Assembly (NCBI GenBank): GCA_950295325.1
Contig: OX485804.1
Coordinates: 53,010,001-53,074,000 of the forward strand
Source of the DNA: Polytrichum commune
Taxonomy: Eukaryota; Streptophyta; Polytrichopsida; Polytrichales; Polytrichaceae
Reading direction: 5' to 3'
Length of the DNA: 64,000 bases
This document shows, piece by piece, positions 6,701 through 37,334 of this stretch. Each line of letters begins with the position of its first letter. Position 1 is the first letter of the stretch. The notes under the pieces are model-generated. The model ran no database searches and had not been told where the DNA came from. It saw only the letters and a list, made by a program, of their open reading frames with translations. The position numbers were made by a program, and so were the translations under genes.

Positions 6701-9700
6701 CTGCAGATATAGAAATTTCAACCTCAAGAATCTGAGTAGTATAAGGAAATAGCAAAAAGTAACCAAATAAATCCCATCTACCTTAGAGTACATTTGAAAA
6801 ACCTTACCCGGCTGTATCCCAATCGTGTGGAGAAGCGTGCAGAGTACTGCCTAGATTTTGGATCGTCCTCAGAGGGATCCGTCTCTAGAAACAGGGTATA
6901 TGCTTTACCATCTCCACACACTGATAGCACCAATCCTTCATACCTTTGTTCAATCAAACACCAAATACCAAATTTTATAATTAGATATAAAAATCAGTTT
7001 ATATAAACATATATGCACATACATACAACAACTGTTTAGCTCCACTTTTGTCGTTTACATTCCACAATTCAGGATGACATCCTAGCAGATTGTAATTGGC
7101 AACTCCTAATTTCAAATACGCAGATGTATTGATGAACTCAAGTACTTGTTATTTCCTTCTTGGAGTTGCATATTTGTATCCTAAACTTTCGTTCTCGAGA
7201 TGTTGAGCATTACATTGCGTGGATGCAGCAGTCAATATTTAAAGAGCCAGAATATTGATTGCTACCTGTCCAGTGTCAAGCCTGGTGGTAAAGCCAGCCT
7301 CTTTGAGAGCTCCACATATCCACCTCGAGTGAACACATACCCTGTACATGACACCACATCTTCAAGTTAAGCTGCATATCTTCAATGAGACATAGCACTT
7401 AATAGTTCATGGGGGACAAGGATTTCCGTGCATTTTATTTTTTTGGCAGCAACCAAGAGCTCGAGTATGAGTTGTAACAGTAACAGAAAAACTTAGGGTA
7501 TTAGAATTCACTTTGAGAATATAGTACAAATATTCTGTGAATAAAAACAGTGATTTAAGTGATTGATTCGAAAATTCATTGATTAATCAATGATTTTAAA
7601 TGACACATCAGATTCTTAGATTGAAGAATAGATGAATTGATGAAACATTGAATATTCATTGATCAATTGATCAATCTTCTAACCTGAAAAAATGGCGTTG
7701 CCGTCCTCGGCAATCTCGAATTGCGCATCCATCCCACCATCATACTTTCCAGTGATTTCATCAGTGAAATAGGTGCCTTCTTTGAGCTCCCATCCTTCCA
7801 CAGAGTTTGCTTGGCTGAACTTTGCAAGAAGCAGCTTGCTTTTGCTGCTTCGTCCTGCCCTTGACTGAGCCAGCTTATGATTATAGTCCTACATTCTCAA
7901 ACACAACATTTGCTTAGAACTCCATGACATCCTCATAAATTAATTTTGAGGACTTTGGTTCTATATGTAAAAATTTGTCAACTCTCTGCCTTCCATAAGT
8001 AGCCTTCTAAATTGAAACTTATAAAGACTTATCCTTCGATTCAACAGGAGTTGGTTGTTATGCGAACAACACTGTCCATGTTTGGTAAGTTTTTGGTGCA
8101 TGCTTGGAGGTAGTGTGTGGGTTTGACCAAAGAATATCCTATTTCAATTCATTGAGGGCCAAACTCATTTAAGCACATCTTGGGATGCCCAGATGAATTT
8201 GACTCTCAGTGAACAAATATAGAGCATTCTTTGCTCACACCCCCACACCAACTCCAAACATACACCAAAAACTTACCAAACATGGAACATGTTGTCAACA
8301 AAACAACCACCTCCTGACCAAAAGTCCCGTTGAATTAAAGGACAACTCTAATGATCCGGATAAGTGTGAATACAAAGCTCGAACTGTGGATGGCACTCTT
8401 AAGCATGTGTAAGGACATTCTCTTTTATTCTAAAATCAAGAATAAATAAATTTTGACCCCAATGGAATCATTCTTAGGCTTTCCAGATTACCTGAGAATT
8501 ATTCTACTTGCATTGGAGCTTCCTAAATAGGCTACTTCAGAATGTGATGTGGGTAGTTGTAAATTTATACCTGGAATGCTTTCGACAGATTATAGACACC
8601 TTGGTGGGACACCCTAGTCAAATCTCCACTTATGGTAGACCTGGCTGTGGCACAAAAGATGATTTTGTTGCAGCCTTCCACAGCATCTTTCAACGTGGCG
8701 GGATCCCCAAGATCCCCAACAACAATTTCTACTGAGCGGGGAAGCAATTCCTTGGTTTCATCATCGTTTCTCCTCACCAGTGCCTGTTTGGAAATTCATA
8801 AAAACCTGTATGTTTAGAGCTCTCCCTTATTAATTGTGCGAGAAACCATGCAAAATTCGATGCCAATTTGACAAGAGGAAGGGCAACAGAAATGGTAAAT
8901 GGGCCAGCCAAAAAGTCCCCTAAAACATGTTGAACCTTTCATGATACCCAGGTTCATAATCTCAACCTTCTCAACTTCTTCAACATAGTATTCTTAAGCA
9001 TCCTGTGTAAGGACATTCTCATTCTATTCTAGATCCAAGCATCAAGGTCCTTGATAATATGCATAGATGCCAAGCATAGTCAAGTGGCTTTAAGGTAGAT
9101 GGGTCTTAAGTGGTTACTTTTCCTACTGGCCCAGTTCTCCTAGGATATGAATATGCGATTAGTACAAATCCAAATTGAAACCGTAGCCACTTTCCTCATA
9201 ATTTTTGGGGCTCGTATGAATATCTTATTCATGATCAAAATGAAGATCCTCGTGCTTGTTAAATGGTCATATTGGTCCCCCCAAATTATGTTAACTATTG
9301 AGCTTATATTGGTTATCATATTTTGAGCAGGTAGTCCAATCTCTTTTGAACACATGTCTTTTTTCTATCTGTTCTTGGAGCCACACCTAAGCTATGTTAA
9401 GTTCTATACGTCTACCTTAAGCTCTCATTAGTCAACAAGGATCGCATTGCACCTATCTTCGGACAAAGCCTTCTCCTATCTCTCAAGATACAATTTTAAG
9501 ACCTTGCCAGGAAAATCCTTACCATGTGTATACTCTCCAAGATGCTTACGTAGGGGGAACACCCACTAAATCACTTAAGAATGCTATGAAGATGAGAATG
9601 ATGTGGCTGCTAGACTTTAATTAATCTTTAAACGGGTAAGAGATGGATATTCCAGGGACGTATTCCATACAATTGATTATTGAATAACATTGTCATTATC

Positions 9701-16911: not shown

Positions 16912-17279
16912 ATACTTAAGGGGATTGCTATTTCCACACCTTTTTTGGCTAGATTCACACCTTTTTGCCGGTTCGGTTGCCGTGTCACTGAGGCGCTATA
17001 TATGAGATTCTTCATGGTGCATCCGGACTGTTGATCCACCAAGGCCCATCCAAGAGCCTCAATGATCCTAGGTGGCGGTGGGGTGGGGGTGGTGCTTGCC
17101 ACCAAGGTGGGGTGGGGCCGTAGGCCTCATGTCTTTTTGGGAGAGGCCGGATTTAGGGTGGTGTCGGGCCTAGTGGCTAGGCGGGCCCAATGGCTAGGCC
17201 TACTTATTATATAACTAGTTGGTTACCCTTACTCTACTTACTAAATAACTAGTTGGTTAGGGCAAGGCCACTCACCCTG

Positions 17280-17335
17280 CATCCGCATCTGCATCTGCAC
17301 TTTTACATCCGCGATGCAGATGCGGATGTAGGGAA
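17280..17335. repeat. short hairpin of hexamer-like units
   Basis: CATCCGCATCTGCATCTGC is followed 15-20 bp later by its near reverse complement GATGCAGATGCGGATGTAG. A related pair, CTGCATCTGCATCCTGG and CGGATGCAGATGCAGATCC, lies at about 17,972-18,031. Both are inside the fold-back element. Confidence 0.6.
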
Positions 17336-17474
17336 GTGCCCCACTCAACCTGGCAAAACTGCATTCTGGATGAAGAAATTTGGGGGAGGTGCAGAACTCC
17401 CTGCATTTCCTCGATTTATGCAGGGAGCCTGCTATTAACTAAAGACAAACAAGTTCTTTGATGTTTAGGGTTTA

Positions 17475-17915
17475 ATTGGTGCAGGATTCACCGGAAAGTT
17501 TAACTGGAAAGTTTAACCGGATAGTTTCACCGGAGAGTTTCACCGGCTGAGGAGAGTTTCACTAGCTTGACACAGTAATTTCTTCTGCCACAATGATACT
17601 TACAGATGAGCAATGATACTTAAAGATGAGAAAATTCGAAATAAAACTGATACTTAGAAATAATTGGTGTTGGGTTCACCGGAGATCATTACCTTCAGGT
17701 TTCACCAGAGAGTTTCACCGGCTGAGGAGAGCTTCACTAGCTTGACACCGTAATTTCTTCTGCCACAATGATACTTAAAGATGAGCAAATTAGAAATGAA
17801 ACTGACACTTAGAAATAATTGGTGCAGGTTTCACCGGAGAGTTTAACCTGCAGGTTTCACCGGGGAGTTTCACCGGCTGAGCAGAGTTTCACTAGCTTGA
17901 CACCGTAATTTCTAG
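17475..17915 (+). repeat. three-unit tandem repeat inside the fold-back element
   Basis: Units of about 150-170 bp share GAGTTTCACCGGCTGAGGAG, AGTTTCACTAGCTTGACAC, CGTAATTTCTTCTGCCACAA, TGATACTTAAAGATGAG and AGAAATAATTGGTG. They start near 17,474, 17,660 and 17,815. CACCGGA-type strings also recur at finer scale. There is no coding capacity. Confidence 0.75.
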
Positions 17916-18054
17916 AAGAAATCCAAAAGTTAACACTAACACTGTGCAGGATGAGTGGGAGTTCTCCCTGGGTCTGCATCTGCATCCTGGAGGGAGGCCA
18001 CTTTTCAATCCCGGATGCAGATGCAGATCCAGGAATGACTGGCCTTGCTCTTAG

Positions 18055-18640
18055 CCTTACTCTACTTACTAAATGACTAGTTGGTTACCCTTACTCTACT
18101 TACTAAATAACTAGTTCGTTAGCCTTACTCTACTTACTAAATAACTAGTTGGTTAGCCTTACTCTACTTACTAAATGACTAGTTCGTTAGCCTTACTCTA
18201 CTTATGGCATGATATGAAACAAGTAGGTTAGTACGAGATGGTTAGCAAATCCAAATCAAAATTTAGGAGCTCATATGAATATCTTAGTCATTATCAAAGT
18301 GAAGATTATGGTGTCAATAATGATCATATAGGTGTCCATACCTAACTTCAAGACTTGTACATATACCACTCAAATATACATGTCCAATTAAGAAGAGTGA
18401 CCATAAGTAGAGTAAGGCTAACCAACTAGTTATTTAGTAAATAGAGTAAGGGTAACCAACTAGTTATGTAGTAAGTAGAGTAAGGGTAACCAACTAGTCA
18501 TTTAGTAAGTAGAGTAAGGGTAACCAACTAGTTATTTAGTAAGTAGAGTAAGGGTAACCAACTAGTCATTTAGTAAGTAGAGTAAGGCTAACCAACTAGT
18601 TATTTAGTAAGTAGAGTAAGGGTAACCAACTAGTTATATA
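18055..18640. repeat. 35-bp minisatellite in two opposed blocks
   Basis: The unit is TTACTCTACTTACTAAATGA then CTAGTTGGTTAGCC. It is repeated directly about four or five times at 18,056-18,205. The reverse complement (GTAAGTAGAGTAAGGGTAAC then CAACTAGTTATTTA) is repeated about seven times at 18,402-18,640. Single related units also occur at 17,222-17,260. The blocks adjoin the inner ends of the terminal inverted repeats, so the minisatellite appears to have grown out of the fold-back arms. Confidence 0.85.
18208..18350 (+). repeat. dispersed repeat A, copy 4, inside the fold-back element
   Basis: GATGGTTAGCAAATCCAAAT, GCTCATATGAATATCTTAG and TCAAAGTGAAGATTATGGTG match repeat A at 13.58 kb and 9.2 kb. 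It lies between the two opposed minisatellite blocks. Confidence 0.65.
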
Positions 18641-18905
18641 ATAAGTAGGCCTAGCCAATGGGCCCGACACCACCCTAAATCCGGCCTCCCCAAAAAAGAC
18701 ATGAGGCCCACGGCCCCACCCCGCCTTGGTGGCAAGCACCACCTCCGCCCCCCACCCCACCGCCACCTAGGATCATTGAGGCCCTTGGATGGGCCTTGGT
18801 GGATCAACGGTCCGGATGCACCATGAAGAATCTCATATATAGCGCCTCAGTGACACGGCAACCGAACCGGCAAAAAGGTGTGGAAATAGCAATCCCCATA
18901 CTTAA

Positions 18906-20841: not shown

Positions 20842-23800
20842 TCACGTACCATTTGTTGGTTGCCCTTCCTCTACAATCACTCTGACCTCAGGTTGCAATA
20901 ATATACCCCCCTGGAAGCCAGACTCGTTCCCTTCCACTTGACCTCCTCCTGCAATTGCGGGCCACACTGCTACTCTCGTTCCAATTCTTTGAGGTGGCAA
21001 GGGAACAGTTTTCCTACTTGCAGCACCTACAAGTGCCAGAGCAGCTGCGCTAGGTAAAGAGTAAAATCCAGGACAAAACAGGCTAGAATCCTGAAAGTTG
21101 CCCCTGTAGCTGGCTCCCAAGCTAGAATCCCCAATCTCTAGATCTTGAGGTCTGCACTGTGCTCGAAATGCTGGCCCTGTATGATTGAAGAACTCGCCTT
21201 GTACAGTGCTATCCTGACCAAGCTTGCGATTTTTAGCATGTGTTGGGGCCTGTTCACTGGAAAATCTACCAGCAAATACATTGTGAGTTGAAGTTGGAAG
21301 AGCCTTCGGTCTTGGAGAAGACATCCACCTTTGAAGCCAAGCCTGAGTTTGCGGTGGTGCTTGAGATGTGTCTCGTTTTGAGACATAATTAGGATCTACA
21401 CAAGAATTCTCTGGATTTTGAGCATGTGTTCCATATATCCTGGTACCTGCATCGTGACTACGTTTCCTGGAAGATCTTCCTGGTCTATCTCCTGGCGCAT
21501 CAGTCCACATCTGACAAGTGTCACATCTAATCTCCCCTTGATTCATACCTCGACCTAAAATTTCAGCTGCTCCTTCACCTGGAAGAGCCCCTGATCTATG
21601 CTCCATATGATCATGACCACCATCACCCCTCACTGGTTCTTGAGTAGAAGCTATAATCTCTCTTTCTCTCTCCTTACAATCAGGATCTTCTGTGGCCGTC
21701 TCCTTTCCACCTTTCACCCTACTACTAGAAGGAGCACAATTCTTGAACCTCCCCTGTGCTGAACTCCTCATGATCTGCTGCTTTCCAGGAAACATGGATG
21801 TTCTTGCTATAACAGATACGTGATTTTGTCCAGAAGATGATGGTGGCAAGGAAATAAGTTGATGACCATGAGGAACATGACCACTTGCCATAGGTGTGCT
21901 TGAGGCACTGCTGGCCTCACAAAAGGAGGGAGCATAGAGTCTTGAATTTTGTGGAGGGCATTCTTGGACTTTAAGATGCTGCTCCTGCAACCATGAAGCA
22001 AAGACAGAAACAGCATAAGAAAATCATATCTGTAAACAATAACGAATATAAATGAGCACCTTGTGCAAGTGACCAATCACTGACTTATAAATAACCGAAC
22101 ACATTTTAGAGAGCAAAACAACTCTGATAAAAGCCCTGAAAGTCGCCTGATATAATTATCTACGCTAAAACTCAACAAAGTCTTCATCACAATAGGGACA
22201 TGACCAAGTCACCATGATGAGCAGATCCAAATAGCAGCTGATTGCGCCTTCAGAAAGGTCCAATATCAAGGAATAAGTACACACATATCCACAATCCACT
22301 TCCCACTACACATACACTATACTAATCCCCCAATACATCGAGAAATTTATTATCATCGGTTAGTACACATTAGGTAATTACCTGCAAAGTACGATCAACC
22401 TTCGAAGGTTTCGTCGAGTTATGATTCTTACTACTTGGCTCTTGTTCCAATTCTATATCACCTGCTTCATCATGAAGGCTTGGTCTCCTGCTGCTTAACT
22501 CAATTGCCGATGTGTTGACTGTCTTGCAAGGAGTTTCTGCTTGTTGGTATCCTCCTCCATAAAAACCCGGTACAGGAATCTGTAAGGGTACTGCAGTTTG
22601 TGTGACCCTCTCTGGTACCAAAGAGCTGGTATGAACAGATGATATGTGTTTATTAGCAATTATATGATTGCTAGTCGAGCCTTGCTGGTCAGAAACTAGA
22701 TGGGCGTTTACTTCAAACCCGAAAAAAGTTTTAGTCCCAAGATGCTCTCGCCTTGTGTCTATGGCATTTCGGTCATCTACATCCATAAGATCAGCGGCAA
22801 CACTTTGTGGCTTTGATGGAGATGCAGAAGGTTTATGCTGCTCTTTAGCAGTTATAAGAGGAGCACAGGTAGGTGCCATGAATGAGGACCTTGACATGGA
22901 CTTTGCTGCATCAAGTAGTTTTAGAGTATCACTCCTGCTGGAAGAACTCACAGGATCAGGTGATGGCTTATATGGAGCAAAAATAGTAGCATCGAACTTA
23001 CCCTTTGGTATACTTCCATCAACTTCTTCATCATTATTTTCCACGTAGCCATGTGAAGGAAACAAAGGAGTCAACAGAGACTCCCCTGATACAGGAGGAT
23101 CAACCTTAGTCTTCCCTCCACATGCTAATCTTCGCGGTTCTTTATTATGCTTAAAAGGAGCAAACAATGATAAGGGCGGAAGAGAAGATGAGCTTAGGAG
23201 GCCATTGTCAATCACTTTTTTATCACTGCAATGGACTTGAAATCCAGAATTCTTCTGTAAATCCACGTGCTTATTCAACTCTTCTTCCTGTCCACCTGAT
23301 CGTTGACCATCTCCTGACCCTGGATAATCCACCTCAGGTGATATTCTAGCTCCAGGTAGTGCCAATGGCCTTTGATCTGTGGCAACTGAACCACTGCCAG
23401 GACCAAAAGCACCCAGAACAGGTTGTTGTTTTCTCCTGATAGTTTCTCTTAATCCTGGTCGGTGATTTTTAATCAAAGACGAGTCCTCAGTTGCGCTTTC
23501 TATGGGATGTTGCAAAGGGGACCTGTGTGAAAGAGCTGAAGAAATTTGCAACATCTTATTGCCCTCATGCTTCTGGTCCCTAGAATGAACATTATCCTTT
23601 ACCAGGGGTTGCAAGTCACATGGAGGAGACCTATTCACTTCTCCCGGCATACTTGGCTCTGACGTTCCTGCGGCAGCTGTATTCTCACCTTGGCCTGCAC
23701 GCCTGGAAACCTTTATCATGGAAGAACCTTCGTTGGGTTCCCAGACCATCATGTTGGGGATTGACTGGGGAGCCGGCAGCCATGACTGACCAGATGGTAG

Positions 23801-24700
23801 CTCTGATACACCCTGCATCTCCAATCTCTGCACCCCAGTATTTTGGTTCCATAGGGTACTAGGGTGTATGTTCCCTTGCAATTTTTCTCCATTCTTTGGT
23901 TGGTCTTTAAATCTAGGAGGCACTAGAGGAGGTATACCTGTCAATGAATGTTCAACCCCTTTGGATGCATTTAGCGACTGCTCCTCTGACAACAGAGCAG
24001 AATTGCCTTCATGATCACCTTCTAGCTTTAGATCTACAAACCCTTCTACATTGTCCTCAGCATGAGCAGTAAGAGCCACGCCTTCAACTGCATAGTAAAC
24101 TTTGGCTGTAAGCTCACGCTCTCCACCAGGTTGAATTCCTCTGCCTTCAAAAGCACAAGGTGGCCCCTTCCTGGCTATCGATGTTGATGGAATTTGTGAT
24201 CCATAATTGTGCTCCAAAACGCAATCCTCAACACTAATTTCTTGCATCACTCTGGGTCTTTTATCTATATCGCAACTATCCTGCCCTGATTGCCCCTCAA
24301 ATGAAGCTTGAACTTGATGTCCAGGATCCTCAGAACTTCTCTTGTCCTTCAGAAGAAGATGCACACCTTCTTCTTGAGGAGGGCCAGGTTGCTTCTCTTT
24401 CTCTTTACAGTGAGAAGGCATAGTCCCTTCGCCCAGAATTCCAAGAAAGAGTCGCTGTATCCATGAAGACCTGAGGGCACCCATGCTACGTCCAGTTGTT
24501 CTATCATTCTGTTTGGTAGTGCACCGAGTGGCCAAAGGAGTGGGATTTAGAAATCCTAAGACCTCTCTGCTGTTGCTGGCATTAGGTAGCTCTGCTGCTT
24601 CTGCCTCCCCAGGGTGACATGTTTGCAGCTCCAAGTCATATACTTCGGGGGATAGCGCAACTTCAGGAAAAACTGGGCTTTTCCCTTTGTCCATAAACAT
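20842..24700 (-). CDS. large disordered plant protein of unknown function (2 exons, 1,153 aa)
   Basis: I do not recognise this gene. Exon 1 is 24700-22382 (773 codons) and exon 2 is 21984-20842 (380 aa plus stop). The donor (VDRTLQ|GTAATT) and acceptor (TTGCAG|GAGCAG) join in phase 0. Such long open frames in this AT-rich DNA strongly suggest real coding. The protein is rich in Ser, Pro, Glu and Gln, has no membrane segment, and is mostly low complexity. Visible motifs are SSWIQRLF at about residue 79; repeated LFAPFK and IFAPYK motifs at about 520-590; a CDTCQMW motif and a basic RSSRKRSH stretch (possible nuclear signal) at about 927-950; AWLQRWM at about 988; and PSAAALALVGAASRK near the C-terminus. 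The start at 24700 is the first Met in frame; a TAG lies 27 bp upstream, and a second Met follows two codons later. It begins only 381 bp after the last identifiable NUP205 exon, on the same strand, so it may be a separate gene or the 3' part of a fused transcript. Confidence 0.75.
21985..22381 (-). other. intron of the 20.8-24.7 kb gene
   Basis: This 397-bp GT-AG intron lies between two long in-frame exons. It contains no open frame, in contrast to the flanking exons. Confidence 0.8.
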
Positions 24701-25081
24701 GCAGTTGCCAATTCCTAGTGTCCTCTATCCAACCAGTAAACAATGAGGCAGAATAAGACAAGCTGGAAGAGAGGATGTGTCTAGCCCCTACAAGCTCTTA
24801 GTGAATTAAGAAGACATCTTCAATTTAAGATGATTATAAAGAAGGTTCTGACACGTAAATTTAACAAAAGATGCTAGCTCTTCTATTTAGTGATCTGAAA
24901 TATAGGCAAAAGACCAAGAACTTTCAACCTTGAGTCACAAACTTGAAGGGCAAGACCTAACACACACTCAGATCAAAGAGCAAATTGTCAAGCAGGCTTT
25001 TACACAGTTGTAACATTGAAGGCAACCCATATCACAAGAAGGTTAATATGCTCAATGTATTGAAGGTAGATGGGGGCAAAC
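24701..25081 (-). other. junction between NUP205 exon 24 and the unrelated gene
   Basis: Read on the minus strand, this stretch starts with a donor (CTGAAG|GTTTGCC) and is T-rich and intron-like. Candidate acceptors are CCTCTCTTCCAG at about 24,767, which has the best pyrimidine tract, and GGTTGGATAG at about 24,728. The first would extend NUP205 by only 15 residues to a TAG; the second would join NUP205 in frame to the large downstream open frame. No sequence resembling the next part of NUP205 was found. Confidence 0.6.
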
Positions 25082-28000
25082 CTTCAGATTGGTATCATAT
25101 TTTTCCCCTCCAAGAAGTTCCAACATAGGACCACAAGTGACTGGATCCACACAAAGTTCATGTATCAACTGCAAGCCAGGTATCGTGGAAGAAAGAAATT
25201 AGCTTTTAAATGGCAAGACTTGCTTTAATCATTACAAGCCACAACTGATCAAAAGCAATACAGATATGTTGTGCAGATATAGGATCAAGAATTGCCCCTA
25301 TCTAATAAGTATTGCACACCTTAATTGATAGAAGGAAAACCAGACATGCATCTCTATAGCATTATATATACATTTGCTTATAATTTAATTATATTCCTCA
25401 ATCAATCTTGCACCTCACGAACCTGGTAGCCAAGTCCTTGCAATCCAGTATTCAATCCTGGCCTCGTAGGTGTGTCCAAAAAATCAAGTATCACCCAAAG
25501 GCAGCTGCAAAGACAACTAATCAACTATTTTTAGGCAGATGCAAAATATCATTTGATGTGAAAAACAAAACCACAATTTGCATTCAAGCAGAGCAACAAC
25601 TGAAGGAAAGGGACCTCAAGAGAATCTGATGTTTGCCTGAAGTGATGATCCGGCCGAAGCCTCGTCTTCTCTATAGGTTGATTGAGATCAAAACTTAAGA
25701 GAAGATGAGTGACATTTGGAGATGGCTGACCTAGATTAGCAAGGAGAAGCTGCATGAAGGCCACATCTTGTCAATGTCATCCACAAAAAAACCTCACTAC
25801 AAGTTCCCTGGAAGTACAAGACAAGCCCTGTGGTTGACAGGGAATGCATCTGCAATTAACAAGAAACATTGAAAACAGCTACCTCCCTCTCAAAAGAGGG
25901 CATACAAGTGTGCAAAGTTCGTTATACTACCATGATTATGCTAAGAGGTTCTACCTGCAACAAGTTGGCCGGTTCCTACAATCTTGAGCAGCTACATGAA
26001 CTAAATTAAAAAGGTATAAATGACCATACCCGCAAAATGAGAGCACCGATGTCACCAACAGGATTTTCCGGCACTTCAGTCTCCACAGTATGAGCCTGTA
26101 GGCAAGTAGCATAATCTTCTATAAATTTTGGGGCTGCTCCTGCCTCCAATATGACGGACACCAGCTTGGGCATCCGGGCACTGTCAAGCAAGATTAGTGG
26201 GTTGGCATAAAGAACTGTCCATTCAAACAGCAAGACCTGAATTGCAAACTAATCACCGTTTCTGCTTCATCTACTGGAAAAGTACCCTGTTTCTGGTCTG
26301 CTGGCAACATAATAACTTTACAAATTGTAATCTAGAAACCATATTATCTTCGAAGAGTACCTGAGCAGATTCATAATCTGGATAGAGTATTGTTGAATCA
26401 GAGGCAATTTATCATATCGTACATACTCCAAAAGTGTCACAATCAATTGAGAATCACGTGATAATACTATATGTATAGGCTGCAGAATTGGCCCACAGGA
26501 TAATCAGCCAAATTATTCACCAAAGTTGACAAGACATGCCCAGAAGGTACATTCGGAACACAACTTAGCAAATGAGCAACCATGCACTTGAAATCAGCAC
26601 ATCCACATTCTGTGTATCGCTAGTCAGAATAGAGTATAAAGTGGATAAGAGACATGCCTGGTATACAGGAGACCAAGCTTCTGCATATAAAGTATCTTTT
26701 GAGAAAGCAAGAATTAAAATCTTAAAAGAGAGGCAGATGGCCTCCTCCAAAACTGAGCCATGCAGTTGGCCTGTTCGTTGCTCCATCACAGAATTCACGC
26801 CTAGCATCAATATGCTCATCAAATTGTGGTAGATGACCTTGCCATTCATTAAATCCTGCACCTCAGTAACCACCCTAGCAACTGTGAATCGTAACGTACA
26901 AGGAGCTTTGCATGTTCTAGACAGTATAAGGCGATTCAAACTTATCATCAAACAATCTTCAGCAATACTAAGATCACCTCTTGTTGTATGGACACCAGAA
27001 TGCTGCTCATATGCCCAAAACCAAATAGACAGATATGGATTCTGGAGATGTGAAAACTAGACACCAAAACTTCTACAGCTGTTCTTATAGGAATCAACAA
27101 GCACACAGAGAGGTTGTATACCTTCATCACTTCCATCCCTGGAATTTGAGTTGTGACTCCCGTTGCTGAATATGGGGCTATCATTCCTAAAAGAGACTTC
27201 TCCGACGGAAGAATGTCAATTGTGCTGTTCTTAATTTCCTCATCTGTGAGCTTGTACACACTTAGCATCCTGCATAGTAATATGAATAAATTAATATTAT
27301 GCAAAAGAAGCAAACTTCAATTCAAAATCTAGCTAATTGAAACAGCTGCCATTACCCTGCCATCCATGCCCTCTTAAATATGAGGTGTTTGTTCATCTTA
27401 GGTTTTCATAGAATATTGTAGGTGACAGCCTTATGACGTAGTGGCAAAATGGATGTAATATGCACCCCACATTGCCTGTGTTCCACAGAACAGTGTCATA
27501 GAAATTAAACCTATGCTTGTACCACCAGACCCTCACCAAACCCACAACTTTGATGTTCTTATCTCTGTAAATCTAAGCCATCACATTCAAGACATATTGC
27601 ACGAATTCCATACTCTTTGCTTTTGGTGATGACCTACAAGATCAAGGACCACAGCAAAAGCTTCACAGGCCACTTCACTATGAATTTACTACACCTACAG
27701 TCTTTAAAATACTCAAGATTCAGCAAACTTATGTGATAATACTCCAGGAGTCTTTGGAGAAGAGAAAATTCTATGAACAAAAAAAAATTTCTCAGCTCTT
27801 TATTTTCTCACCCACATTGACTATCACTATTAGTGCAAGTTGACATTTCAATTTAAGATGGCACATACAATGCCATTACTTCAATTGCTACATAGAGCCA
27901 CTACATTGTTACATTTCTTTAATGATTCTGACTTCACCACATCCAGAGTCCAGAACTTCTCCTCTTTAAGATATTACACGAGGAGAAATGGTAGAATACT

Positions 28001-28957
28001 GACAGTTCAAAATGGTGGAGAGCTGCAGCTGCAAGTTCCCATTTTTCCACAAGATTTGCGAATGCTCTTTGGCTCTGTTTTGCAAATAACTGATCTCGAA
28101 CAAACCGAAAGAGGCCCATGTGCCTACACCATATTGAACATCAACCTGCTTAATCAAAGAAACCTGGAGAAGCTTACATAATGGCACCAAAGTCCATGTC
28201 AGAAGTACAACATAATGCAATGCTTTTCAGTTATCCTGGCGCACTTAAAAAGGCAAAATACATACCTGACACCTTTGTCAGATGTATCTGTCTCATTAGC
28301 AATGAAGACGTTGTGCAGCTTTAGGTAGGAGAGTGTGGAAGGATACTCCTCCACCCTAGCCTCTACCTCATTAAGCTCAAAGGATATGTCATAAACCTGC
28401 ACTTGGTAATAAGTGTTTGTGTTCAGTTAAAGAAAGATACATGTGCATCACTTATGCTCATTTATACACGTTATCTAACAATCAGATGAAATGTTATGAC
28501 CATCACCCAGCAAAAAGGCCAGCAAGAACAAAATGAATGTCAAAAACTAACTCATTTTTTGAAAGGAGTACCTGGGATGATGCTTGCATTAACGAGCCAT
28601 TGGTAGCCGGAGGTGTAGGTGGTACTGGCAAATCATATTGTTCCAGCAGACACCACACTTTATTCTTCATTTCGGGTGATACATAAACAAAATTTGTAAT
28701 TGCAGAGCGTAATGCCCCCTGCAACAATAGGCCATGAAGTGATGAGAATAATCCACTTTCCCTTTAATAATTTAAAAGCTCCACAAAGGAACAAGTTTGT
28801 AAAAACTAACCTTATTTATGCACCCTATTTATTCAAACTAACCTTCAAGTATGGAGGAACATTTTCATAGGGTAGCAGCTTGAAAAGTGGCTCGATGTCT
28901 GTAAACCATTCAGTTCGCTCCATCTCATTACCTGTCATCATCACCTGTTGCATGACG

Positions 28958-28990
<33 letters not shown>

Positions 28991-31900
28991 TGATGGTGAA
29001 CCTTAATCAACAAAGGCAAACTCCACATTAATGAAGGCTTAGATATTGACCCTAATTAGTTTATCGTATTAGTCCATCATACATAAGCAAACTCCACATT
29101 AATGAAGGCTTAGATATTAATACACATTATGAAAACTCCACATTAATACACATGCTTACTTCAGAGCAGCTACTATTATTACTTCTGTATCTACTGGAGT
29201 ATTTATTTCTTAGATGAAATGCTAGCATCTGGGGAAGGTTCAATTCAATATAAAACACACTACCTGGTTCTCCACAAGTTCATAAAAATGGCAATCTGTT
29301 TGATTCTAAAAAAACAGAATGCAAGAAAAGGAGGCCTGTCATACTCTTCTGAGAACTGCAAGATAGGCCTCCAATGCCCGTCCATCTCTTTCCTGGAAAA
29401 CTGGAAGCACGGCTCCTGGAATTTGCAAGAACTGCCTGAACCGTTGATCGTAGACAACTAAGGAGTTAAAAAGTGTCTGCCACCCAAGTGTTCGGATGCT
29501 TTTCTTTTGAAGTAAATGATACACTTTCCTTGCTCCTTCCTCACACACAGCCTGTGACCACTCAATGGAGACACACATTATGAGCTGATTAGACTATACA
29601 GCGCCAGATCTGGAGTAACCACTAGATGACAGGAAGACACTCAAGCATCATCACCCTGCAACTATTCTTCATTCCAAAAGCAACCTTCAAAGCTACATCC
29701 AAAGCAACATTCAGTAGTTTGCACCTAATTAGTGCAAACTAACAGTAATTTACGTGTGGATGTCCCTTACCAAAGCTGTGAGCATATTGAGAAAAGCCAC
29801 CAAAGTCCAATGGCTAGTTTGGTCCTCCCCAGCAAATTGAACAAAATTCCAGAGATCCTCATTGTCTAGAATGAGATTTGGCTGTCTCTGCATCAAACAA
29901 TCACATCAACTTATATGTCTGGGTATTCTTCAAGACCACAAATATCTTGTTGGCTACATGCAAGTATCATAGCTCCAAGTTAAAACTCGATTGCTAGTAG
30001 AATTAAGTGTGTTATTCTAACCTGTGTACTGCCCACGGTATATAATGGACTGTCACCTTGCTCTTGAATCATAACACCAATGAGGTCGAAGAAAAATCAA
30101 AGATTCACAACCTGGGTTGTACTTCTTCAAAGTCTTTGGCCATTTGGGCTGTTCCTGGACGTTGATGATTACTCAATTTAATTAAATATTGGATGATCCC
30201 AAAGATCCTGAGAACTATTTGTTCCAGCTTGATTGTTCCAAATTAAAGCTTTATTCTTTAAATCCCTATGATTCTTATTCTCAACTTGCCTTATTCAAAA
30301 GGCTATAATAATTCCAGTAAGTGCCATACTGCATGCCTGGAAAGAGAGGTCCTACACTAATAACTACTTACTTTAAACCTTCAACTATGAATAACAGTTC
30401 CATTTAAGTGAGCTGATCAATATTTTCTATTAGATGTACTCGAAATGTAGAGCGCCCTATCCCTTGGGTAAGGCTATCTACACATTTGAAGTGAAGAGGT
30501 GAAGGAGGATAAATCTTCAGGGGAAAGAAAGGGCTACCCTACTTATTGGTTGCATGCAAAGGCCTTTCTACTTACGACCAAACAACCACAAAAGGTATAA
30601 ACCCACAATTCCAGCAGACCCACTAAGCACTCACACACACACAAGTCCATTTTAGTGACTGGCAACATATGTCATCTCTATTGTATGCCCTAATTAGTTA
30701 ATCGTATTAGTCCATCATACTTAAGCAAATTTGCACAACCTTACCTGGTAGATTTCCCCAACCAGATTAAGAAGTGAAATAAAAGGCTTGGGTTGAATAT
30801 CCATTGCCTGTTGTTGGGCCCTCCCATCACCAACTGCAATTGTCTCCTTTCCATGTATCATGTGCTTGCCCACAGTATCCAGAGTTGCACGTTTCAACTC
30901 CATGATCTGCACATGATTCCAACATCTGTAAGTGTCTGGCAGACCAGAAATAACAATTAATCCATCCAAATAATAGAGATATCCTCTAACTCAACCTGAC
31001 TTATGGTCGGGAGTTGATTATTTTGCATACATACCTTCCACATTTGGTATGTTTTGGTGCATGCTTAGGTAATGTGCAGGTTTGAACAAAGAACATTCTA
31101 TATCGGTTCATTGAGTGCTAAACTCAATTTGACATGCCAAGAGGTGCCAAAATGAGTTTGGCTCTCAATGAACCACAAGGGGTTGCTCTTCATTCAAATC
31201 CAAACACTACCTCTGAGTGTGCACCACAAGTGGGAAAAAAAGTAATGATTTTGTATACAAAACAACCAATAAATATCATAAGGGACCAACTCCCGACAAA
31301 AAGTGCCATTGAGTTGGAAGATATTTATAATAACCCAACTTAAGTAAAACACCTGGAGTATACAATCTGGTAAGACTGTCAGAACATCCATAAAAAGACT
31401 GAAGCGACTGACCTTTTCACGACCAATGGAGAAGAACCTCGCCAGCAACTTGCACACGTAAGCATTGTACTTGGAAAGTGTGATGTAATCATCCTTCTGC
31501 TCACAATAGAAACAGGATGTAGAGGTTGGTCATGTTACTCCAGAAAACAGATGGGCCCTCACAATCTAGAGAGCTTCAAATGCATATGCGCCACCACCAA
31601 ATACCACATGTACTAGAACATACAACTACTTGCAGTGAGCACAAGATAGCAAACGGAAAAAAGACCTGGAAAGTAGCACTTTGCAGAACTCGAGCATTCA
31701 GAAACTTAAACACATCCTGTTCACATGCTCGGTCCAAGCACAGGCTTGAGCTTTCATCATCTAAAAAGGAGGACCCTGTTGAAGTGCCTTCAGTGCCATC
31801 CTCTGTGAGCATCAGGTACACTGCCCACACAAATTGGATCACCGCTGTGAAGCCCACTGCAATGGGACCAAGATCTGCTGCATCCATTACCTGCAGAGCA

Positions 31901-34900
31901 GTAATCACCACAATTTAGACGTTGTAGTTCTTCCAAAAATAGAGATCAGCAGCTACGAGTCTCTAGGTAAAATGTCCACTACATATCATATGATCTCCTT
32001 CATGATCTAAACAATATAGCCTTATAAGTTGATGATACTATAAGACGTGTATGCAAGTGCGAAACTGCTGAACTCCATGAGAATAAAAAATTTACTAGGA
32101 GTTGGAAGTCCCTGCGGAAGCCTGCATCAAGAGCCAGCCAATCTTGAGGCTGGCCTAGCACATTGGACACAAGTGAATTGGACAGCAAACACATGATTGT
32201 ACATGTTATCTGCAATTCAAATGCATGCAAAAAATTAGTCACAGAAAATAGATAACACTTTTGTGAAGTCTCACTGCAGGGAAAAAAAGCCAGAACTTCA
32301 AATCCAGAGTCGTCACCTGGAATTTAACATCATCATCAAGCAGACTCTCCTCTGTGGAGCAATCTCTGAGCAGATTATACAGGTCTTTGGCCTCTTCTGC
32401 ATCTGCGCATCAAGAAATGCAAATAAAACAGTTGAAAGGAGGCATTGTATTGTTTGGATAGCAGCAAAGCTCAAATTTGTCATACAATCAAGACCAACTC
32501 TATATAAATGCTAGATCGCCACCACAAGACCCTTGCAAAATAAAGAGCTATCTCTCAACAGAAGTGAAGGGTAGCAACAAACTTATTCTAAAGGCAGAAC
32601 ACATGAGGAGAAGGCAATGGCTGAGGCTGAGCCGCTCCTTGTGGACAACATTACAACGCAGCACTATTGCTCCACTAGAATCCACAACATATGGCTCCAC
32701 ACCATGACCTCCCAATCCAGACGGCCCTTCTTCATTTAATTCCTGTGTGTCAGGGACAGTTGAGTTATTCTTAAGCAAAAAATCAGCAATAGTGCTAGGA
32801 ATTGAGAATTACTTCATAGAGTCATTCACATAGACTTCTTGATTTAATTCCTGTGTATCCACACCAGTTGAGATATTCCTTCAAAAAAAGCCAGCATTCA
32901 TGCTAGGGGATGATAATTACTTCAAAGAGCCGTAAAACTCAGTCACTCTTTATTTGTCTAATATAACGTTGTGTCGGCACGCATCAGTTGTTGTTACTTG
33001 GGAAGTGGTGTTTCACATCACAGATCAAAAGTAGCTGCTGAAGTCACTTCATTCTTTCACTGTTCCACTCTCAGTGTCCAAAAGATTCATATGGAAATCT
33101 GTGCTAAGAATTGAGGTGAGTTTGATTATCCAGCCACAAAAGCCCATTTTCCATTTCTTTTGACGAAAATCTTAATATATCTCCCACCAATCTAATAAAC
33201 AAGCTATCCATCAACCTCGCATAAACTTTTAATTTCAATTTATGAAAATACAAATTTCCCCAGCTTTTGGTGTACACGTACGTGGACATGCAGTGAGACC
33301 TACACAGATCCCAGTATAGATAGGCCTCTGTTATATCGAACCCAATCTCAACTTGCAACATTGAAACCTGGTGTAGAGCTCTGCAACATTATACCTTATC
33401 TTGAATTCCAATTCAGTTTAAACTCTTGCCAATTTTCTACTCTTGGTACAAGCCTACACAACTCTGGAAGCCTCCCTAAGTTCAGAATAATCCATTACCA
33501 TCTGTATTTTCTATAAATTCACTTCACACCTATGCATTTAAGAGTGTTGATGACTATTTGAACCGTTAAGGCACTCCTGCCTTCACAATATCATTCAATT
33601 GATAAGAGTATGATATATTTATGAGATCCTCAAGGTACCTTAATCAGAGTTATCAGCCTTGTTCGAAGCCCTGCATTAAGTAACCTCTCAATGTACAAAT
33701 GGATCTCCACAGCAAGGTCAGGATCCCATTCATCATCCATAACTGCCTGAAGAAAGACCTTGTTCACTTCAGTTTTGCATATGACAAATAGTATCTATAC
33801 AAACAAGAAACAAAAGGCATGGCAAACTGGACAAATAACAACAGGTTCAAAGGAAAACCTAAATTTACAAGGTTAGGACAAAAATGCTGGATCTGTCATA
33901 TTGCTGCGCCATCATACAAGTCAGTTTAGTCGATATGTCTTCAAATTGGCAAGCATATGCCCAAAGTAGGACCTGACTAGCACACACATGCTGAAGAGAG
34001 AGCATACTTGAATCAGAAGTTCCAAAGAACTTATCAGAGCCCTTCGTTCTGTGAACCATAATCCTGCTGATAACCGTAAAATCTCCAAAGGTCCCCGGCC
34101 TTGCAGATTCCACTGCAATAACAGAGAAAACCAAAATGCATTCATATGAGAATATTCAAATCAATCAATATCTCGGAAGTGAATTGCATTGGACCAACAA
34201 GCCATAACAGATTCAATCAGGCATGTGCAGTTACAACATAGAAATCAAGATCACTTTCAGAACACAAATCTTGAAAATTTTCTGCGAAGACAAGTGCAAC
34301 AAATGAAATAGGACAATCCCAAGACCTTGCATCCATGGAAATAACCTGGGTCAACAATACCTTTGTCGAAGGACACCAATCTAAATTCATACTTACATAA
34401 GGATTTCCTAAAAAGCATCTACGTCCATTTTTCTGACCTGCCCCTCCAAAATATATTTTAGAACCACAAAAAGCAACAAGCCAATGTCTCTATCTGAACA
34501 GAAAACTTGGACACTCCATTGCCTGTGGAATTTATGGTTGAGGGGATGTCTGGTTATTGTTGTGTTCTCTGAGGTGTGTCTCTAAACCATGAAGTCCAGT
34601 TGAGGAACAAAACACCTTGCTGGGTAAGATGACAATACACAGGACTCCATCCCCATATAATACTGAGGAACATAAACATGATGAGGTATGTAACTCACTT
34701 CTTGACGAGCAGAATCAAACAAGCTCGCACAGTACAGCTCATTCAGGTTGAAGTCATCACTCAGTTTCAAGACCTGTTGTATTTAGCAGATCAGATTAAA
34801 GCACTGCACATATGAAAATGACACGTTCCTGAAAACATCCACTAGCACACAAGAGCAAAACTTCACTAAAAAGTGTCATTAGTGGGGACCACCTTCAGTT

Positions 34901-37334
34901 CAAAAGAATCCACCATGATTTCCCACTCAAATATAATGTGGACCACATCAAATGTCTATCCACAACAATTCATTTCTAAAGAGTTTGCTGTGAGCCCCTC
35001 TAAATATTTTATTTTTCAAAATTAGCCTGCATCATTCTGCCATTTATGATGGAACTATAGAAATATCATTTGTGATGCTTCACAGCACTGGATCTTGAAG
35101 AAGAGTAGAAACCGATCAAATTTATCAACTTCCCATCCATTTTGATTTCCATTGGAAATTTTTTTGATGAGGTCCACATTGTATTCCATCCACATTATTT
35201 TCTGGTCCCCACTAATAACACATTTTAAGTGTAGTGTTCATGTGGATTGGCTATAGTAAGTATGTATGTTAAATGGTATCAATCTAATGCACCACCACAA
35301 CCATGAAATTGGCAAGTGAATATATGGGTGACTAACAAAGAGAGACACAACATGACAGACAAAAACTCCTGTACCAAGAAAAGGAACTAGCTACATAAGC
35401 TGAAATCAAGCTTACAATCTGGGTATCCTGAGTGCTAAGTGCTGTTGACAGTGAATTGGGTAACCTCACATCCTCAGCTGAAACTTGTGCTCTATCATCT
35501 GGTTGAGGCCCCTGAAATAGAATGACAGACATATTTCAACATCAATAACATTGGTTACTACACATAGTCCCTCAAAGAAGCGTATCCAGAAGTGTGGCCC
35601 CACTGATGACACACCAAATTACTGTATTGACAACACAGTCACAGATAAACCCATGATAAAATAAACCCCCAAGAGCCTAAGGACCTTCATCCTTACAAAT
35701 TGCTCTAGCTTTACATGGAATTCATTCTACTGCTCCAGTGGAGGGTCCCAAAACACACATGGTTCAAATCCATGAGATAACCAAAATGTAGATATCATAA
35801 ATCTCTATCCAGGAAAGAATCTTAAGTTGCAGACATCCGTTTGGTCAATTTTTTTCGGATCCTCCCAAATCTTCCTACCAGACTAATAGTCACCTCCTTG
35901 ACCCAGATATTTTAGAAATTATATATTATCCAATGTGGATTTTGTGCACTACTTAGACAACGTCTCAGGTGCTCCTTTTATGACTCTGCCCTAACAACCA
36001 TAGGTTCTACTGCGAATTTCTATGAGCATCAGCAATGGCTGCTTGTCTAAACAGTGCTACACCCAAGGCAATTACCATTAATAAACTGCATACTTAGGTG
36101 ACCAGTAAGTGTTGAGATCTGCAATAGAGAGAATCCACAGACTGCAGTTCTATACTATTCTGCGCAATATACACTAGAACTTTACTGATCTTTCTGGTAG
36201 GTGGCCTTCACACATTGATCACTACTGCCAATCGTTGATGTTTCAGCAGCCTATCGCTGCAGACCTGATGAGAGAACTATGGTGGTTCACTGCCAATAAA
36301 ATGTGCAGAGTTTGTGAAATTGTACAATACAGAAGATCCAAAAGGACGCTTTCTATCTGCACACTGGCATCATCTTAATGAGCTGATGGGTTTTAGGGTT
36401 TACTACAAAGACGACAGAAACATTATCCAGGTCAATGGATGTACGAGGCATAGTCTAACGTGGCCAGTCTGGATGCAAAGGAACTACTGCAACGGTCAAT
36501 TTGAACTAAAACACACGAGGACAATGCAACCTAATCCTGTGACAACTTACTTTGCAGTATCTACCTCCACAATATTTGGTAAGCAGCTGCTTCCTTGGCA
36601 TTCATTTGAGTTCATGTTGCGTCACAAAGAGGATTAGATGGCAACATTGACCTACAGACTCAATGTCAAAAGGAAAAATAAATGTACTGTTTTGCTTAGA
36701 TTCAACCACCTTCAAATGAATTATCATAAAGCTAGAATATAACCGGGATCCGTTGATGCTCAAATTATAAGGCAGGGGAGAGATAAGGAATTATCCATCT
36801 GTACAGTACTTCCGCAAAATTCTACACATCGTGATTGCCCAATTGAGTCATTTGCTCTCAATTGCAGGAGCTCTTGACAGCAGGTAGGTCTGTAGGACAT
36901 CAATATTAACCCCCCGCAAGGCCTGCACTAAATGTGACCCTGAACAGTGACTCATGGACACAAAGTTCCTCATATGTGTTCTGCGCAGAATTGATGAGAG
37001 AACTACGGTGGCACACTACGATGTGTTCTGCGCTCCAATTGAGACAAATTAACCCCCCAATTTGACGCTTCAAGCTTAAGAGACAGGCAACTCTTCAGCA
37101 TTCGTAGTGGGTGAGTGATTTCCTTAAGGAAATAGAATGCTTGGAATGCAGCGTGGAATAGCGGTGACAATTTAGACTTACAGGAAACGTAAGAAAGGAT
37201 TGGAAGTGCGGGAAATAGACTTCCAAAGCGTTGAAGAGCTCAGTCCTCTTGTAGTTGGAGGGAGCTGCTGCTGTCTTCTTCGTCCCCAGCTGCTCTGCCT
37301 CCACTACAGCCAGCAGGCCCCGATATGACACCAT
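25082..37334 (-). CDS. NUP205: nucleoporin NUP205, N-terminal 1,028 residues (24 exons); C-terminal half not found
   Basis: NUP205 is a large alpha-solenoid scaffold of the nuclear pore inner ring (NUP93 subcomplex). Exons: 37334-37182, 35511-35416, 34773-34699, 34112-34008, 33746-33639, 32742-32583, 32396-32317, 32209-32096, 31890-31666, 31496-31413, 30906-30745, 29887-29771, 29551-29345, 28944-28843, 28718-28572, 28396-28266, 28123-28004, 27269-27122, 26855-26658, 26479-26361, 26180-26030, 25749-25637, 25504-25423, 25168-25082. Phases fit throughout. Conserved blocks in order: PDDRAQVSAEDVRLPNS, GPLEILRLSAGLWFTERR, the ERLLNAGLRTRL region, the VWAVYLMLTEDG region, WNFVQFAGEDQTSHWTLVAF, DIEPLFKLLPYENVPPYLK, LLEQYDLPVP, FELNEVEARVEEYPST, LVEKWELAAAALHHFEL, GKVIYHNLMSILMLGVNS, LLEYVRYDKLPLIQ, FIEDYATCLQA, THLLLSFDLNQPIE and LIHELCVDPVTCGP. 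Two introns use GC donors. Plant NUP205 is about 1,840 aa, so about 800 residues are missing after exon 24. The visible part has no premature stop. Confidence 0.93.
25505..25636 (-). other. GC-AG intron in NUP205 (intron 22)
   Basis: The donor is TTCAG|GCAAAC and the acceptor TTTGCAG|C. Using the GC donor gives HHFSCLWVILDFLD, which follows the family's HYSCLKVILEMLE. The next GT downstream (GAG|GTCCCT) leaves the frame wrong and hits a stop in exon 23. Confidence 0.8.
26480..26657 (-). other. GC-AG intron in NUP205 (intron 19)
   Basis: The donor is TACCAG|GCATGT and the acceptor TCTGCAG|CC. The join restores WSPVYQPIHIVLSRD, matching WRPLYQPLDIILSQD in Arabidopsis. The nearby GT (CCT|GTATAC) would drop three conserved residues (VYQ). 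Confidence 0.75.
28945..28995. repeat. (CAA)n microsatellite in NUP205 intron 13
   Basis: An uninterrupted ACAACAACA run of about 11 units lies next to the acceptor of exon 14 (28,944). On the transcript strand this is a GTT repeat a few bases upstream of the splice site. Length variation could affect recognition of the exon 14 acceptor. Confidence 0.85.
30990..31330. mobile_element. palindromic MITE-like element B, copy in NUP205 intron 10
   Basis: It shares GTTTTGGTGCATGCTTAGG, GTGCAGGTTTGAACAAAGAA, TTCATTGAGTGCTAAACTCA and the AACAACCA-to-ACTCC right arm with the 8.03-8.35 kb element. The outer arms (GTCGGGAGTTG and CAACTCCCGAC) are inverted. No coding sequence is present. Confidence 0.65.
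34864..35236. mobile_element. MITE-like element D in NUP205 intron 2
   Basis: The terminal inverted repeats are about 30 bp: CACTAAAAAGTGTCATTAGT then GGGGACC on the left, and GGTCCCCACTAATAACACAT then TTTAAGTGTAGTG on the right. Internal symmetry (ATGTGGACCACATC and GATGAGGTCCACAT) makes it nearly palindromic, and it is AT-rich and non-coding. Target-site duplications were not resolved. Confidence 0.7.
35512..37181 (-). other. NUP205 intron 1
   Basis: This is the longest NUP205 intron, with GT-AG borders. It carries a plus-strand frame of 107 codons (36,314-36,637) that I do not consider a gene. Around 36.25 and 36.98 kb a short repeated string (CTGATGAGAGAACTATGGTG and TTGATGAGAGAACTACGGTG) suggests a small duplication. 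Confidence 0.75.

Follow-up and report, generated by a model that had tools for sequence, protein, structure and literature searches.

A 3'-truncated, intron-bearing NUP205 gene in Polytrichum commune alongside a complete intronless copy

The genome of Polytrichum commune contains two unequal copies of the gene for the scaffold nucleoporin NUP205: an intron-bearing copy that is truncated at its 3' end and lies in the stretch of 64,000 nucleotides analysed here (the window), and a full-length, intron-free copy on another contig, C4, which is probably a retrogene. The reading that we favour, with a probability of roughly 0.6, is that an intron-rich parent gave rise to the C4 retrocopy and was truncated beside an unrelated downstream frame (gene B), that its exon 24 is now spliced to an acceptor at 24,894, and that gene B is a separate gene.

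The window copy of NUP205

Splice-aware alignment of the C4 protein places the N-terminal half of NUP205 (NUP205N) on the minus strand of the window (Table 1), where it comprises 24 coding exons encoding 1,030 residues that begin with MVSYRGLL and end with GGEKYDTNLK. Although the aligner can introduce frameshifts and stops against a penalty, it placed none in these 1,030 codons. It permits only GT/GC-AG introns, so that the intron ends are partly given by construction; under this restriction 21 of the 23 introns between the exons are GT-AG and two have GC donors, namely those at 26,658 (after exon 19) and 25,637 (after exon 22). The usual marks of a pseudogene, that is stops, frameshifts and broken splice sites, are absent from NUP205N as seen by this GT/GC-AG-only alignment with its two GC introns out of 23, and the truncation is its only clear lesion.

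The affinities of the predicted protein are clear across this half. Its residues 1-1026 align with residues 1-988 of the NUP205 chain of PDB 9sob (9sob_C16) at an E-value of 3.1e-261 in a phmmer search, and it passes the cut-off of the Pfam family PF11894 (Nup192) with 173 bits against 28.7. The 9sob chain, of 1,838 residues, is plant NUP205 according to the molecule name given by its depositor, and we take it to be the Arabidopsis protein. The homology that defines the NUP205/Nup192 family is thus present throughout the N-terminal half, and the C-terminal half that a full-length member possesses is found only on C4 and not at the window locus.

A reading made earlier from the letters of the window, hereafter the sequence-only reading, had stated that the NUP205 match stops after exon 24 (at 25,082) and gives way to an unrelated long frame on the same strand, and both the alignment and a shuffle test bear this out. 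The N-half of the C4 protein scores 2,750 against positions 38,000-25,081, as against 157 for the C-half to the left of 25,080 (positions 25,080-9,001), a value inside the range of 134-202 given by six shuffles; hence the break between the matching and the non-matching half is not chance, and the earlier statement that no C-terminal counterpart lies toward the left edge of the window is borne out as far as position 9,001. The count of 24 exons is likewise retained, with the accompanying figure of 1,028 residues corrected to 1,030 by alignment, and the donor at 25,081-25,080 and the 381 bp from there to the ATG at 24,700 are as that reading described them, the 773 codons being counted from this ATG to a donor after 22,382. 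An initial alignment had continued past the break and produced spurious matches within gene B as far as C4 residue 1694, in a region where the shuffle test found no C-half signal.

Elsewhere in the window, open frames at 166-2073 on the plus strand presumably belong to part of a phospholipase D, judging by a motif in their translations. A foldback element at 16948-18890 has inner repeated units flanked by inverted outer arms, which measure 142 and 103 nt and are complementary at 96% and 92%. At least 39 further matches of arm length, at 96-98% identity, occur in the genome among the 40 of 459 candidates that were scored.

Table 1. Features of the NUP205 and gene B locus in the window (positions in the 64,000-nucleotide stretch)
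Feature	Position	Strand	Evidence
NUP205N, ATG 37,334 to the end of exon 24	25082..37334	-	Splice-aware alignment; phmmer match to 9sob_C16; Pfam PF11894; splice sites
Predicted intron 24 (187 nt)	24895..25081	-	Donor score; length
Exon 25, likely last coding segment (ITK followed by TAG; 3' UTR would follow)	24883..24894	-	Acceptor score
First exon of gene B, starting at ATG 24,700 (773 codons; open frame 24,724-22,370)	22382..24700	-	Single copy; no Pfam family
Second exon of gene B (1,153 aa when joined to the first)	20842..21984	-	Splice scores; single copy

A complete intronless copy on contig C4

A PF11894 profile search of the same genome (407.8 Mb in 64 contigs) returned two matches, both within a single frame on C4. 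This frame, between 32,509,910 and 32,514,727, is free of introns and stops and encodes 1,952 residues, of which 41-1942 align with 1-1831 of the 9sob chain; the whole protein scores 1,692 bits against that chain, and the stretch 1067-1952 (886 aa) taken alone reaches 676 bits against chain residues 993-1831. The profile search found C4 only and missed the window exons, and is therefore by itself silent on other intron-bearing copies, unlike the protein searches with the two halves described below, which do inform on them.

The C4 gene has the features expected of a retrogene, in that the introns of its multi-exon paralogue are absent and its frame is intact, with one frame of 1,952 residues where the window copy takes 24 exons to encode the initial 1,030; this intron comparison covers the N-half, the C-half having no intron-bearing copy in the genome. 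We accordingly regard C4 as the full-length copy and probably a retrogene, the loss of its introns through an mRNA intermediate being the simplest direction of change. At a dS of about 2 (see below), target-site duplications or poly-A remnants would not be expected at C4. Since NUP205 is essential in Arabidopsis, where an excerpt of PMC4203139 lists nup205-1 as embryo lethal and states that nup205-2 homozygotes could not be isolated, the C4 gene should carry the essential role.

Some further observations were made during the genome searches. A 417-bp stretch on contig C7 (8827878-8828327) shows 91% DNA identity to part of the C4 gene and 84% protein identity over 145 residues, and it is a later, partial and intronless duplicate of that gene. 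Contig C8 (146,561 bases), with its psaA- and psaB-like frames, resembles a plastid genome; its psaB gene scores best, at 1,701-1,705 bits, against PDB 8htu, 6l35 and 7ksq, which are Physcomitrium structures, in keeping with a moss. Short fragments of the psaA/psaB family with stops occur at C4:47707642 and C5:337267.

Divergence of the two copies and constraint on the window copy

The window and C4 copies differ with a dN of 0.26 and a dS of about 2 (pS 0.70; NG86, 1,023 codons). Of eight blocks of three exons, three show saturation of the synonymous positions and five give dN/dS values of 0.12-0.26, with exons 22-24 at 0.26. At fourfold sites of codons whose residue is unchanged, identity is 46% (280 sites), against 26% expected at saturation, and the synonymous sites are therefore not wholly randomised. 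In a three-way alignment of 912 columns (9sob residues 1-924), the window and C4 copies share 62% identity, whereas C4 and the window copy show 50% and 47%, respectively, to the 9sob chain, which suggests that the duplication is younger than the split from the 9sob lineage.

Over the same 912 columns, 92 sites have changed in the window copy alone and 63 in the C4 copy alone. The private changes of the window copy have a mean BLOSUM62 score of 0.15, as compared with -0.46 for random nonsynonymous changes and 0.44 for the private changes of C4. The window N-half has been under constraint for most of its life, as witnessed by the lack of any stop or frameshift despite the high dS, and this constraint was weaker than that on C4, given both the larger number of its private changes and their less mild nature. 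Moreover, 4.3% of single substitutions create a stop, and a neutral phase beyond about 2.2% divergence is unlikely; with neutral divergence at or below about 2.2%, the N-half is either still used or very recently dead.

The latter condition corresponds to the alternative that survives best, namely that the parent was full-length and functional until lately, when a single deletion removed its 3' half and left a pseudogene in which stops have yet to accumulate. Such a history would fit the coverage of the complete protein by C4, the faster change of the window copy (92 against 63), its two GC donors among 23 introns, which could be early decay, and the lack of any C-half remnant, which one clean deletion would produce. 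It would have to place the event very recently, since 1,030 codons free of stops and frameshifts hold the neutral phase to about 2.2% divergence or less, and the usable acceptor and stop situated just 3' of exon 24 also speak against it. We consider it on the whole unlikely, but with appreciable weight.

The predicted end of the transcript and gene B

The donor after exon 24 (GAAG/gtttgc, phase 0) scores 7.2, within the range of -0.4 to 11.6 of the other 23 donors. Acceptors were scored with a matrix from the 23 NUP205N acceptors, each scored with itself left out (range 2.6-11.9, or 2.7-11.9 under slightly different pseudocounts); with so few sites the matrix is noisy. In the list of AGs between 25,050 and 24,714, the one at 24,894 (ctatatttcag, followed by ATC ACT AAA TAG) is alone in reaching the range of the real acceptors. 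It scores 7.3 and 7.41 under the two settings and at 7.41 stands above 18 of the 23; 74 of 3,660 minus-strand decoy AGs in the window and 19 of 495 inside the NUP205N introns do at least as well. This ranking makes NLK-ITK-stop, three residues beyond exon 24, the most likely ending on the splice-site scores, with a predicted protein of 1,033 residues. The noise of the matrix is illustrated by two AGs farther on, a purine-rich one at 24,591 inside gene B, which scores 7.3, and one at 24,566, which scores 4.0; in the frame of exon 24 these meet a stop after 11 and 20 codons, respectively. Reading through the exon 24 donor is also a possible end of the protein, which by the sequence would then terminate nine residues later. 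Another ending, put forward in the sequence-only reading, in which an alternative acceptor (24,762) terminates NUP205 after 15 residues, was rejected, since this site scores 1.1, below all 23 real acceptors.

The downstream frame has several properties of a gene. An open frame of 784 codons has a chance of about 3e-21 at the local base composition, and the donor at 22,382 and the acceptor at 21,984 that join its two exons score 9.3 and 10.9 with the NUP205N matrices. Both exons are single copy in the genome, and exon 1 matches no Pfam family at E<=1. Codon usage trained on NUP205 did not single out the gene B frame and was partly against coding: the 784-codon frame scores 0.043 against 0.025 for the next frame, and the 393-codon frame -0.023 against 0.056 for another. 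The assignment as coding is based on frame length and good splice sites. The product is rich in S, P and G and, by this composition, probably disordered. Weak evidence for a promoter belonging to gene B comes from a TATA-like word at 24,838. Most probably gene B is no fusion partner but an independent gene with its own ATG, on the strand that also carries NUP205N; the 182 nt between the predicted NUP205N stop and this ATG are tight for two independent genes, which counts against this view.

The closeness of the two frames on one strand, the phase 0 donor and the frame that is open after 24,724 are what would be expected if exon 24 were spliced in frame to 24,724, so as to attach a gene B tail of about 1,160 residues to the NUP205 head, and the sequence-only reading had raised a chimeric nucleoporin with a disordered tail. 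The acceptor scores offer no usable in-frame site for such a fusion: 24,724 scores -0.76, a value reached by 1,368 of 3,660 decoys, against at least 2.7 for the 23 real acceptors, and none of the six listed frame-keeping acceptors as far as 24,500 exceeds 2.0, which falls short of the real ones. Furthermore, 19 listed AGs precede 24,724, one of which is strong (24,894, leading to the early stop), and gene B has its own ATG. These observations make the fusion quite improbable.

The missing C-terminal half

When the C-half of the C4 protein (890 aa) was searched against the 64 contigs, as the sequence-only reading had proposed for the C-terminal half of NUP205, it matched C4 and one other place, the latter at an E-value of 3.2 with three stops inside; outside C4 this protein search thus gave no credible match for the C-half. 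As a control, the C4 N-half (1,022 aa) recovered C4, the C7 fragment and 21 matches on 21 of the 24 window exons at E<=10, with 16 of the 24 at E<=0.001 and exons 3, 10 and 23 missed. Conservation is somewhat lower in the C-half (676 bits over 886 aa, as against 1,692 for the whole) than in the N-half, which makes the C-half search slightly less sensitive than the control; assuming a similar exon number and divergence, many C-half exons should nevertheless have been detected. As C4 is full-length and nothing else in the genome credibly matches the C-half, the window copy is a 3'-truncated, intron-bearing duplicate and not a split gene.

Of the explanations left open by the sequence-only reading, the truncated duplicate is hence the one that is upheld, by a full-length second copy on C4 and a missing half that occurs nowhere else; the acceptor at 24,894 and the complete intronless gene had both been overlooked there. 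Its suggestion of an assembly mis-join at about 25 kb, with the true gene continuing in unassembled sequence, appears very doubtful: the window contains no N, the segment 24,500-25,200 occurs once in the genome, and a search of the 64 contigs turned up neither the C-half of the window copy nor any orphaned C-half. A split gene, with the C-half encoded elsewhere as a separate, complementing gene, is scarcely tenable: at the sensitivity of the N-half control it is contradicted, the continuous C4 frame being the sole place with a credible match to the C-half. More generally, a locus read exon by exon may look chimeric although its explanation sits on another chromosome.

A model for a retained NUP205 head

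In the favoured reading, an ordinary intron-rich NUP205 gene would originally have been present, and its mRNA would have been copied back into the genome to give the full-length, intron-free C4 gene that now supplies the complete scaffold. The intron-rich window copy would later have lost all sequence 3' of exon 24, most simply through one deletion or rearrangement that put gene B within a few hundred bases. Exon 24 would then be spliced to the short exon at 24,894, producing a "head-only" NUP205 of 1,033 residues.

The possible role of such a protein may be approached by analogy with yeast Nup192. Excerpts of PMC9061825 describe the N-terminal corner of yeast Nup192 as clamped by the channel coiled coils and its N-terminal region as touching the neighbouring spoke; residues of about 1060-1432 contact Nup188, helices 58-61 contact Nup170, and the C-terminal helices contact a second Nup192. 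If expressed, the head-only protein might therefore keep the contacts with the channel coiled-coil nucleoporins and the neighbouring spoke and lack the tail that would contact Nup188, Nup170 and the second Nup192. It would thus be expected to modulate or compete with the C4 protein and not to replace it. According to an excerpt of PMC3679522, FG repeats are bound by full-length Nup192. That the head-only form was kept under selection after the retrogene took over the full role, so that two forms of NUP205 would exist in pores or soluble pools, is a tentative proposal to which we give somewhat less than even odds.

NUP205 is, on the evidence excerpted from PMC4203139, a nuclear-pore scaffold indispensable in Arabidopsis, and a genome with an intronless whole copy beside an N-half parent represents a natural experiment on the use of the head apart from the tail. 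No truncated or retro-copied plant NUP205 was found among the listed titles and opening lines of abstracts of open-licence papers.

Comparison with known systems

The window protein resembles the NUP205/Nup192 inner-ring scaffold nucleoporins (PF11894; 9sob) in its alignment to residues 1-988 of 1,838, and differs from the full proteins of this family in that the last 46% is absent from its locus. The pair of copies also recalls the "orphan" retrogenes that replace their parental gene, described for Volvox and Chlamydomonas (PMC4972966) and reviewed in PMC5408686; as far as the excerpts of these sources go, the likeness lies in an intronless full-length copy that carries the protein while the multi-exon copy is incomplete, and the difference in the survival of the parent here as an N-half with open exons and a usable end. 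Finally, the excerpt of PMC3679522 includes comparable fragments made in the laboratory, namely MtNup188 1-1160 of 1,827, which was solved, and the construct MtNup192 1-1034 of 1,734. Compared by length only, the window gene ends at 56% of plant NUP205, as against 63% and 60% for these MtNup188 and MtNup192 fragments, which are laboratory constructs, unlike the natural gene of the window.
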